From Tardiphaga sp. P9-11 (GTDB lineage Bacteria; Pseudomonadota; Alphaproteobacteria; Rhizobiales; Xanthobacteraceae): DNA of 64,000 nt. Position 1 is the stretch's first letter, and each line of letters begins with the position of its first letter. The notes below the pieces were generated by a model that had not been told where the DNA came from, did not search any database, and saw nothing but the letters and a program-made list of their open reading frames with translations. The DNA lies in assembly GCF_008329525.1 (NCBI RefSeq), contig NZ_NPKQ01000003.1:124001-188000 (forward strand), read 5' to 3'. A program made the translations under genes and the position numbers. Below, piece after piece: positions 58,610-61,796 of the stretch.

Positions 58610-58674
58610 AATTGTCCGCGGGGGCGGCACTGAACGCTTGCGCAAATACGCGCATTGCGAGAACTTGAGTGATA

Positions 58675-59493
58675 ATGCCCGCCCCGACACCAGATCGATT
58701 CATCGTCCGGACGATTGCCGCGCTGCTGGCCCTCGCACTGCCGGCCGCCTTTGTGCCGCAGCCGTCTTATGCCGGCGCGAATGAACCGCCCGGCGTTACC
58801 GCACGCCAGCGTACCGAGAAGAAGACCTTTACCGACAGCGAGATCATCGACGGTTTTTTCAAGACCGCCTTTGGCGCCGAATATCACCTCGCCGGCCGCG
58901 TCGACCGCATCCGCAAGTATGAGCTTCCGGTGCGGGTGTTTGCCGACGGCCGTGCCGACCGCAAGGCTCAGATCGCCAAGGTCGTGACCGACATCGCGCA
59001 CCGGGTGCAGCATCTCAACATCGCCATGGCGGACAGCCGCGACGACGCCAATGTGCTGGTGAAGCTGGTGCGCGACCGCGATCTCTATCGCACCATCTCG
59101 ACCTTCTACGGTACCGACCGCGCCAACGAGATCCGCGACTCTCTCGACCCGCAATGCCTGTCCGGCTTCCGCAAGAACGAAGCCTTCGAGATCGAACGCT
59201 CCGACGTGATCCTCACCGTCGACAATGGCGACTTCGTCTTTCTCGACTGCGCCTATGAGGAATTGCTGCAGTCGCTGGGCCCGATCAACGACACCAGTAC
59301 GGTGCCGTGGACGATGTTCAACGACAACGTCCAGATGGGCTTCTTCGACATCTACGACCAGTACATCCTCAACATCCTCTACGACCCCCGCATCAAGGCC
59401 GGCATGACTGTGCAGGAGGTCAAGGACGTGCTGCCGCAGGTGCTCACTGACGTGCGGATCTGGGTGAACAAGGTGAACGAGTTGCAGGATTGA
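58675..59493 (+). CDS. DUF2927 domain secreted protein
   Basis: A 272-residue protein of unknown function. A Sec leader (RTIAALLALALPAAFVPQPSYAGA) precedes a DUF2927 domain; TDSEIIDGFFKTAFGAEYHLAGRVDRIRKYELPVRVF is its opening pattern, and DPQCLSGFRKNEAFEIERSDVIL and a late CAYEELLQSLGPINDTS are further marks. An upstream GTG at 58669 shares the frame. It lies after the L,D-transpeptidase gene on the same strand. Expected in the periplasm or outer envelope, possibly linked to cell-wall work. Confidence 0.85.
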   Translation: MPAPTPDRFIVRTIAALLALALPAAFVPQPSYAGANEPPGVTARQRTEKKTFTDSEIIDGFFKTAFGAEYHLAGRVDRIRKYELPVRVFADGRADRKAQIAKVVTDIAHRVQHLNIAMADSRDDANVLVKLVRDRDLYRTISTFYGTDRANEIRDSLDPQCLSGFRKNEAFEIERSDVILTVDNGDFVFLDCAYEELLQSLGPINDTSTVPWTMFNDNVQMGFFDIYDQYILNILYDPRIKAGMTVQEVKDVLPQVLTDVRIWVNKVNELQD

Positions 59494-60209
59494 TTCTTGT
59501 CCCTCCCCCAAGCGCGACTTAGTCGCGCAGTGGGAAGGATATCGCGACCGCCTGCGCGTCTCGGCTTCTTCGAATTTCAAACAGCCACTGCTCTGCAGAC
59601 ATGCGTCATCGCCCCCATTGTTTGCGGCGCGGGGGCGCCGTCGTGGTTTGCATTCCCGCCCCCCTGTGAGAGGGCGTGCGGAACGCTAGGTGCCCGTTGC
59701 ACCCTTGGGCCTGATGCCGATGCGGTCTTCCGCAAGGTAGTGCATCAGGACTTTCGGAGGCGCAGGGCAAGTGCCCAGCGTTCCGCATGCGGTGTTTTTT
59801 CGGTTGCTTGCGCTTTGCCATGGCGAACGGTTCTGTCGAACGATTCCATCACCAAAATTACAGTCCCAAGGCGAAGGGACAGGGTGCCTCAAGCGAGTAA
59901 GCCGAACGCGTTTTGACTTGGTCGTCCGTCACTTGATCTGCAGGTTCCTTCCATCTCAAGACAAACCGTGCCGCCTGTCCCAGTGGTATCCTGACCACAG
60001 ACGATCCGGCCTGCCGCAAGACAGCCGTCACCCACATCTCCCGTGACGCCGCATCTCCGGCGTCCACCGCATCCCACCCCGCGAACGTGACGATCGCGAT
60101 CGCCCCTCTCGGTGGGGCAGGACAAAGGGGAATATAAACCTGACGAGGATGATGTCAACAGAGAATAGGAAAAAATGTTTGGGCGGCACCCCGCCCCTCA
60201 CTCGTCCTC
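59494..60209. other. Gene-free stretch with a structured element
   Basis: No convincing gene is seen in these 716 bp. Open frames on both strands are short and rich in residues typical of translated non-coding DNA (arginine, proline, serine). The frame on the minus strand at 59606-59821 is largely the complement of the nested hairpins at 59674-59800. The right part (59800-60209) has no further clear signal. Confidence 0.55.
59674..59800 (+). ncRNA. Candidate structured non-coding RNA with intrinsic terminator
   Basis: Nested stems: an outer 14 bp helix (GCGTGCGGAACGCT at 59674-59687 with AGCGTTCCGCATGC at 59777-59790, one G·U), a middle 8 bp helix (CCTGATGC at 59710 with GCATCAGG at 59742) and an inner hairpin TGCGG-TCTT-CCGCA (59721-59734). 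A local GGGC-AAGT-GCCC (59765-59776) is an alternative fold. GGTG and six T residues (59795-59800) follow the outer helix, as in an intrinsic terminator. No known RNA family core (SRP, 6S, tmRNA) was recognised. Confidence 0.5.
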
Positions 60210-61796
60210 TCACCCCCGCGGCTTCGGCGTGAACGGCCCCTTTGGCGCATTGCCGATCAGCGACACGGTGATCAGCGCGGTAATCCCGAACCAGAAGGTG
60301 AGCCAGAAGCCATCGATATAGGCCAGCGTATTGGCCTCGCGCTGCACCAGCGTTGCGAGCGTGCCGACGCCACGGGCCTGGGCAAGACCCTCGCCGTGGC
60401 TGGCGAAACGGCCGGTGAGCTTGGCGAGAATGCCGACGACATCGGCATCGCCGCTGGCGACATGCTGACCGAGCAGGTTCGAATGGATCTGTTCGCGCAC
60501 GCGCAGCCAGGTGCCCATCAGCGCGATGCCGATCTCGGCGCCACCGAGTCGGAAGACCTGGATATAGGCTGCAAAAGCCGTCGCGCGTGACGGATCGGAA
60601 TTCGAGAGCGCGATGATCACGATGGGCAGCAGCGTGAAGCTCTGCCCGAGCGATTGCAGCAGCACCATCGGGATGAAATCACCGAGCGCCCACTCATGAG
60701 TAAGTTGCGTGCCCAGAAGGCCGGCAGCGGTGAATGCCACGAGGCCGATGATCAGCGTCAGTTTCACGTCGTAGGTGCGAATGAGCCAGATCGACAGCGG
60801 CACCAGCACAACCATCGGCACGACGGAATAGAGCAGAAACAGCATGCCGGACTGTTCCGGCCGCAACAGCGCGATGTTGGTCAGGAAATTCGGCGCCAGC
60901 GACGAATTGGACAGGCTGGTCATGGTGTAGAGAATGATCGTCAGAAGAGCGAGGCCGATATTGCGCGACAGCAGCACTTCGGCGTGGGCCCATGGCCGCT
61001 TCACCAGCGACTCATTGATGAAGAAGCCGACGGTCAGGACCGTACCGCCTGACAGCAGCGCCACCACGGTGCCTGAGCCCAGCCAGTCCAGCCGGTTGCC
61101 CTGATCGAGCCCGGCATAGATCATTGCCATGCCGGCGCCGAGCAAGAGCATACCGCCCCAATCGGCCTCGCATAGAACGAACCGGTTGATCGGTTCGCGC
61201 GGTGTGCCGAGCCAGACGAACAGCGCGAGCAGCGGCGCGATGATGACATCCTGCCAGAACATCCATTGCCAGCCGATGTGGCTGACATAGAAGCCGACCA
61301 GCGCGGTGCCGGAATTGAGCGAGAAGCCGACGCGAATGGAATAGATCGCAATGGCCGGTAGCCACCATTGCATCGGCAGATTGCGAAAGATGATCAGCAG
61401 CGTTGCCGGCACGAAGGTGCCGAGCAGCATGCCGTGTGCAATGTTGAGGACCAGAAGCAGATTGTAGTCGCGCACCAGCGGGATCATCAGCGAGATCGCC
61501 GCATAGACCAGAGCGGGAATGCCGAGCACGCGACGCAGCCCGAACACGGTAGCCATCCAGGCTACCGCCGGCGCGATGAATATCTGCGACGCAGTGCCGG
61601 CAGTGGACAGCCACGCCCCCTCATCGAAACTCAGCGAGAGCGCGCCGCGCAGATCGGCGAGGCCGATGGAGAAAATGCGCGTATCGAAATTGGCGAGAAA
61701 TGCGCCTAGCAGCACCGCGCCGACCGCAAAGATCGGATGGTGCGAAACGCCCCCGGTCGAGACCGGGCCGCTTTCGATGACCTTACTTTCCGCCAT
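60210..61796 (-). CDS. DHA2 family MFS multidrug efflux transporter (EmrB-like)
   Basis: Inner-membrane proton-driven exporter of 528 residues with 14 predicted membrane segments, the DHA2 length. The MFS pattern FLANFDTRIFSIGLADLRGAL opens the protein and GFSLNSGTALVGFYVSHIGWQWMFW lies in the middle; the FWQDV and PREPINR loops are typical for EmrB. Its first 14 nt overlap the HlyD gene, so the two are co-translated. It would form a tripartite pump with the HlyD-type adaptor and an outer membrane channel encoded elsewhere. Substrate unknown. Confidence 0.93.
   Translation of the reverse strand: MAESKVIESGPVSTGGVSHHPIFAVGAVLLGAFLANFDTRIFSIGLADLRGALSLSFDEGAWLSTAGTASQIFIAPAVAWMATVFGLRRVLGIPALVYAAISLMIPLVRDYNLLLVLNIAHGMLLGTFVPATLLIIFRNLPMQWWLPAIAIYSIRVGFSLNSGTALVGFYVSHIGWQWMFWQDVIIAPLLALFVWLGTPREPINRFVLCEADWGGMLLLGAGMAMIYAGLDQGNRLDWLGSGTVVALLSGGTVLTVGFFINESLVKRPWAHAEVLLSRNIGLALLTIILYTMTSLSNSSLAPNFLTNIALLRPEQSGMLFLLYSVVPMVVLVPLSIWLIRTYDVKLTLIIGLVAFTAAGLLGTQLTHEWALGDFIPMVLLQSLGQSFTLLPIVIIALSNSDPSRATAFAAYIQVFRLGGAEIGIALMGTWLRVREQIHSNLLGQHVASGDADVVGILAKLTGRFASHGEGLAQARGVGTLATLVQREANTLAYIDGFWLTFWFGITALITVSLIGNAPKGPFTPKPRG

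Follow-up and report, generated by a model that had tools for sequence, protein, structure and literature searches.

A repeat unit of about 614 bp in the genome of Tardiphaga sp. P9-11 is probably one copy of a multicopy family of non-coding RNA genes, carried on the minus strand. Judged by its sequence, the whole unit looks like a single RNA gene together with its promoter. This reading is favoured over a simple mobile repeat, or an RNA made from the plus strand, because the evidence from promoter, structure, non-coding character and copy dynamics combines in its support.

Position and parts of the repeat unit

The unit lies in the window (the whole stretch of 64,000 nucleotides that was analysed), within a 716-bp gap (59494-60209) that separates two convergent genes. 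The original prediction had called this region gene-free, and the ORFs on either side do end at 59493 (plus strand) and 60210 (minus strand). It had also drawn a nested-hairpin element at 59674-59800: this stretch stands as the core hairpin, but the whole element is about five times longer (59569-60182). The features are:

58669..59493, plus strand: left neighbour, a DUF2927 protein, 3' end pointing at the element
59569..60182, minus strand (RNA sense): whole repeat unit, about 614 bp, from BLAST extents against the genome's other copies and edge alignments
59569..59663, minus strand: 3' module, ending in a conserved GGCTGTTTGA motif (RNA sense); shared by copies, distant relatives and the second element type
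59664..59802, minus strand: core hairpin, from the match to covariance model R1 and covariation in helix P1; encloses the first-noted element (59674-59800)
59795..59800, plus strand: six-T run TTTTTT, resembling a terminator only on a plus-strand transcript
60066..60123, minus strand: 5' domain, a UCCUGCCCC / GGGGUGGGA-type helix around GAGAGGGGCG-N-UCGCGAUCGUCACG, conserved across genera
60131..60136, minus strand: putative -10 hexamer TATATT after a 16-nt spacer, from boxes compared across copies
60153..60158, minus strand: putative -35 hexamer TTGACA, 0 mismatches
60159..60182, minus strand: A/T-rich stretch AACATTTTTTCCTAT (RNA sense), 5' of the -35 hexamer, the conserved right edge of the repeat
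60210..61796, minus strand: right neighbour, an MFS transporter, 3' end pointing at the element

The A/T-rich stretch at the right edge we take to be UP-element-like; its edge pattern occurs at 22 places in the genome, compared to one for a reversed control. From the position of the -10 hexamer an RNA start is predicted near 60124. The 3' module would form the 3' end of the RNA, at which no intrinsic terminator is seen.

Structure and coding potential of the core

The three nested helices of the original prediction, and the plus-strand run of six T residues, are present at 59674-59800 as described: an outer helix of 14 pairs, one of them G-T (GCGTGCGGAACGCT / AGCGTTCCGCATGC), a second of 8 pairs (CCTGATGC / GCATCAGG) and an innermost one of 5 pairs (TGCGG / CCGCA). 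Both strands fold far better than shuffled sequence: as plus-strand RNA the stretch folds at -69.9 kcal/mol (z -5.7) and as minus-strand RNA at -67.2 kcal/mol (z -6.9), with none of 200 shuffles as good in either case. The window copy, taken as a minus-strand RNA of 569 nt, folds with a z of -4.5. The covariance model R1 was generated from 38 non-redundant cores, these being the members of a set of 80 representatives that passed a sense-strand filter (the 80 held both strands of the palindrome, and some were spurious). R1 scores 59664..59802 at 144.7 bits on the minus strand vs 28.1 on the plus, a comparison to be read with the model's minus-strand construction in mind, and with the presence of a copy of the window sequence in its training set.

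The element matches no catalogued Rfam family, as had been supposed from the sequence: a search of the whole window against Rfam 15 gave no matches at gathering score. With E values of up to 1, the loci L092 and L334 gave only sub-gathering miRNA and CRISPR matches, and L031 gave none.

The minus strand of the core is covered by ORFs of 71 and 68 codons. A Pfam scan that took in the 71-codon frame (the 68-codon frame fell outside it) found no match to that frame. Among 75 full copies, each minus-strand frame can be open across the core for as few as 19-28 codons; ORF length, taking the longest in every copy, has a median of 129 codons, and the two strands carry this longest ORF in 38 vs 37 copies. 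The core has no conserved reading frame, which agrees with the earlier discounting of a protein frame on the minus strand.

Covariation and the predicted RNA strand

Every one of the 38 non-redundant cores folds into P1 plus a long hairpin. The inner stems, which were assessed by separate folds, are unrelated in sequence (CCTGATGC/GCATCAGG in Tardiphaga vs CTCGTGTGC/GCACACGAG in Rhodopseudomonas). Covariation in P1 was analysed in 41 chosen sequences from many genera, using an alignment fitted to P1 and 500 shuffles. Three of five measures exceed every shuffle: 99.3% of cells are paired, which is also above all slid versions; double-change cells number 39 vs 11.1 shuffled (0/500), again above all slid versions; and the covariation score is 0.249 vs 0.118 shuffled (0/500), with slid versions reaching at most 0.063. 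The other two remain within the range of the shuffles: double-change pairs – the compensatory changes between arms to which the original prediction had looked – are present, at 5/15 vs 3.9 shuffled (reached by 47/500), and there are 13 further pair types vs 12.2 shuffled (164/500). Because the double changes come mostly from g25-type sequences, independent events may be few. Overall, P1 shows the helix covariation by which structured non-coding RNA is recognised. On a plain MAFFT alignment, RNAalifold recovered P1, two small helices and nothing more, and covariation was low; the stronger covariation above is due to the wider, model-fitted set. In the 5' domain, the helix around the conserved loop is predicted in 30 of 34 representatives (one looks spurious).

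Among these related sequences, wobble pairs moderately favour a minus-strand RNA. In the 38 cores P1 contains 36 wobble cells if the RNA is the minus strand vs 13 if it is the plus; leaving out one column gives 36 vs 2. In the window copy, one P1 position pairs (G-T) only on the plus strand. An element-wide count over 75 copies, in which pairs were defined without G-U, gave 273 cells for the minus strand vs 138 for the plus (33 vs 16 columns).

Promoter boxes and the T-run

Read in RNA sense, the right end of the element consists of the A/T-rich stretch, TTGACA, 16 nt, TATATT and then the conserved body. Copies were extracted from four genomes (83 in all): that of the window (G000, 23/23), G015 (28/28 matches), G017 (22/33) and G004 (10/32). 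Boxes were counted in the 79 with a complete right end, the remaining four being incomplete there. The -35 box is TTGACA in 76/79 copies and TTGACG in 3/79; the second box is TATATT in 62/79 and fits TATxxT in 77/79; the spacing is 16 nt in 79/79, with 65 different spacer sequences. An identical scan requiring at least 10 of 12 box letters succeeds in 77/79 copies on the minus strand, in 0/79 when that stretch is read on the plus strand, and in 1/79 after shuffling. The window copy is a perfect match, and the next best in the 64 kb has two mismatches; with up to two mismatches, five matches are found in the 64 kb vs 0.70 expected. Distant relatives retain GGA-TAtAaTCC and GTCAA at the equivalent position. 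In G280 (genus g25; 18 readable of 20 copies) the sequence upstream is different, with no clear boxes, and the claim of a promoter is weakened for that genus. For Tardiphaga, the sequence argues that the element has a promoter of its own.

The original prediction read the RNA from the plus strand, and on this point the promoter-like boxes and the wobble asymmetry go against it, favouring the minus. Its terminator-like T-run likewise does poorly as an RNA end, being found in only 8/22 copies in the window's own genome. Across the four close species the plus-strand run is seen in 68/82 copies with a recognisable arm; it is kept in 60/60 copies of G004, G015 and G017, a point against the RNA gene, and is absent from more distant relatives in the displayed alignment.

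Copy number and distribution

The suspicion that this might be a dispersed repeat proved right: a 151-bp core query finds 23 copies in the window's genome (E ≤ 4e-11). Three are partial and 20 are full or near full length, a set that includes one copy without the first ~100 bp and one without the last ~40. Core matches are present in 17 of 18 Tardiphaga genomes, and also in Rhodopseudomonas, Nitrobacter vulgaris and further Rhizobiales. With strict filters and at most 11 places scored per genome, R1 matches were found in 155 of 296 sampled genomes of the window's family, representing 24 of 47 genera. A sample of the order gave matches in 13 of 297 genomes: ten belong to the same family, and the three outside it have one match each. 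Under laxer filters, ten chosen genomes have between 6 and 100 matches each, totals that are inflated because the palindrome matches on both strands; the 8.5-Mb genome G280 has 88 matches, occupying at least 69 distinct places among the matches listed. A plasmid search with one 550-base query from G280 (core, 3' side and flank, without the 5' domain) covered 72,556 plasmid records and gave no match. In G003 and G004, many of the matches are located at contig ends: the element explains one class of intergenic repeat where draft assemblies break off.

Genomic sites and concerted evolution

Both neighbours were called for 52 of the 75 full copies, on the basis of codon use and by an in-house script rather than a gene finder. 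The neighbours are convergent at 30 copies, minus/minus at 13, divergent at five and plus/plus at four; the left gene points at the element in 49/68. Four other genomes (G003, G004, G015 and G017) share the site of the window copy. Of the 18 genus genomes, the remaining 13 have no element adjoining the left gene, and the right neighbour also differs there. Of three places without the element (L258, L265-L267 and L247), two were read closely and neither is a clean empty site: L258 keeps about the first 16 bases of the element, and so looks like a deletion, while L265-L267 has an entirely different spacer.

Judged by one flank or more, 21 of the 23 copies in the window's genome have a counterpart at the orthologous site in G015; for 14 of them both flanks agree. 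Copies of the element undergo concerted evolution, as is evident from the fact that orthologous copies are no more alike than other copies. Between G000 and G015, identity is 83.0% for orthologous copies (n=11) and 83.0% for others (n=483); corresponding values are 82.7 (n=10) vs 83.0 for G000/G017, 81.0 (n=3) vs 83.1 for G000/G004, 90.7 (n=8) vs 89.8 for G004/G015, 88.7 (n=6) vs 88.7 for G004/G017 and 90.4 (n=13) vs 90.1 for G015/G017. In 2/51 pairs (3.3 expected by chance) a copy's closest match in the other genome is its orthologue, and in 50/51 pairs both members have a closer paralogue at home, a comparison that sets one orthologue against many paralogues. Gene conversion would most simply explain this pattern.

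At L009 and L023 of the window's genome, flanks are exchanged relative to L186, L210, L222, L227 and L245. The exchange may be of the kind expected from recombination between copies, or may be misassembly.

A separate observation concerns replication. In G280, where sampled GC skew puts the origin close to 0 and the terminus close to 4.2 Mb, the RNA strand runs with replication at 45 of 69 places among the matches listed (p 0.015). Counted by hand, the same holds for 32/39 among the matches listed in G135, G150, G164 and G041, where the contig midpoint, unchecked against skew, was taken as the boundary between replication halves; in G015, also counted by hand, there is no clear bias (16/28).

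A second element type and adjoining repeats

A search of the window's genome with the two end motifs, aimed at an autonomous partner and with six extra places read, uncovered four elements of a second type with a different core: C16:1322490-1322953 (L432), C16:745324 (L405), C19:96473 (L411) and C12:1302211 (L430). R1 detects no core in any of these four loci. Similar promoter boxes are present in all four, and the same 3' module in three (it is not evident in C19:96473). Two of the bodies are 98.5% identical over 410 bases, about from the predicted RNA start to the 3' module; their promoter regions differ, and each has TTGACA with a TATxxT box 15-16 nt on, as judged by eye.

Other repeats and motifs occur nearby. 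A GTCATTCC repeat, which is Br-REP2-like, lies at most 120 bp from the element's right end in 68/82 copies; the window copy, whose right flank begins at 60183, seems to be without it. At L331 and L334 (both G280) another palindromic repeat is found between the 3' side of the core and a farther GCTGTTTGA motif. Beside one second-type element, L432:1275-1385 (plus strand) gives a sub-threshold match to ar14, an alphaproteobacterial sRNA (31.7 bits vs a gathering score of 58.8).

Discussion

If the element is an RNA gene, a sigma-70-type promoter at its right end (60131-60182) would drive a minus-strand transcript of ~550 nt, with its start near 60124 and its left end at about 59570. Once folded, this RNA would comprise a conserved 5' domain, a middle region of variable helices, the long core hairpin and the 3' module. 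Copies of the gene, of which a genome has anything between a handful and several dozen, would provide dosage of a largely interchangeable product and be kept alike through gene conversion; siting mostly between convergent genes would be where they do least harm. From the sequence we infer transcription, both ends of the RNA, action in trans and a protein partner: the product would act as a structured RNA, most likely by binding protein. A trans-acting structured RNA with dosage by way of many copies is our best guess at function.

Conserved DNA palindromes can also reflect DNA-level processes. The element could be non-autonomous mobile DNA, a MITE- or RIME-like intergenic mosaic element whose hairpins and ends serve a transposase in trans and whose promoter is a by-product. 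We consider this unlikely, although it has several observations in its favour: copies are dispersed, 13/18 genus genomes have no element beside the left gene (though the right neighbour differs too), end modules are common to two element types with different cores, and 4-base flank matches slightly exceed the control (26/51 vs a rate of 0.394 in mismatched copies). Longer flanking duplications, however, show no excess in the same 51 copies (5-mers 7/51 vs 0.114; 6-mers 2/51 vs 0.028; 7-mers and longer 0/51), and the local score for terminal inverted repeats is 11.2 vs 10.7 shuffled: inverted repeats of the MITE kind were rejected, and no clear duplications were seen. Moreover the sites are old (the 21/23 shared with G015), the two element-less places that were read closely look like a deletion and a replaced spacer, and mobility leaves the promoter spacing unexplained.

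The convergent neighbours (30 of 52 copies with both called, 75 examined), the left gene aimed at the element (49/68) and the T-run in 68/82 copies would also fit a terminator or insulator for convergent genes, in which the plus-strand hairpin and T-run end the left gene's transcript. That role is decidedly improbable: the T-run is missing in 14/22 copies from the window's genome and in the displayed distant relatives, 600 bp with many helices exceed the need, and a promoter reading towards the left gene would be odd in an insulator. Scarcely credible is a chance palindrome or a decayed small protein gene. The latter is suggested by the 71- and 68-codon ORFs on the minus strand of the core, but the z scores (-5.7 and -6.9), copies, covariation and promoter boxes speak against both, as do the missing Pfam match for the 71-codon frame and the lack of any conserved frame; a chance palindrome is ruled out by the shuffle tests and the copies in the genome.

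Returning to the minus-strand RNA gene family, a more ambitious version can be sketched, which we regard as speculative and doubtful: a modular multicopy RNA gene system of one alphaproteobacterial family, with interchangeable cores set into a common frame of promoter and 3' module, genome-wide homogenisation and, for some copies, perhaps spread by transcript-delimited copying. Should the transcript exist, it would be a large, unnamed, repeated RNA in 155 of the 296 genomes sampled from a soil- and plant-associated bacterial family, and its homogenised copies would place it nearer to rRNA genes than to ordinary regulatory sRNAs.

Comparison with known repeats

Rhizobium intergenic mosaic elements (RIME) are alphaproteobacterial mosaic repeats of ~108 bp with two large palindromes. 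By this description, they are like the element in being mosaic and intergenic with large palindromes; we know of no promoter in RIME. The element presumably also bears a likeness to Bradyrhizobium intergenic sequence. A literature search, with most subscription journals outside its scope, found no paper on the element; for PMC4842269 (a TSS map of B. japonicum) and PMC12306157 it consisted of a word search only.

According to the sections of the source that we drew on, Br-REP1 and Br-REP2 of Bradyrhizobium japonicum are repeated, palindromic and intergenic and lie in 3' regions; one Br-REP is described between convergent genes, and sRNA candidates are reported over Br-REPs (PMC5082802). They thus resemble the element as repeated intergenic palindromes in the 3' regions of related bacteria, but are short (20 and about 40 nt as printed), unlike the ~614-bp element (PMC5082802). 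Their consensus sequences, as given in those sections, have no match in the element on either strand with up to seven substitutions. REP elements of the GTAG and CGTC families are, in the portion of the source used, high-copy intergenic palindromes found in Bradyrhizobium and Rhodopseudomonas among others; their units are palindromes of 20-40 bp, whereas the element has ~614 bp, promoter boxes and several domains (PMC3733652). The main text of PMC11109978 does not name Bradyrhizobium, Rhodopseudomonas, Tardiphaga, Nitrobacter or Rhizobiales. The mobile/repeat sequence candidates of the MRSC-65-2 type that it describes are nevertheless similar to the element, so far as that text goes: each is a multicopy structured motif whose role, as RNA or as DNA, is ambiguous (PMC11109978).
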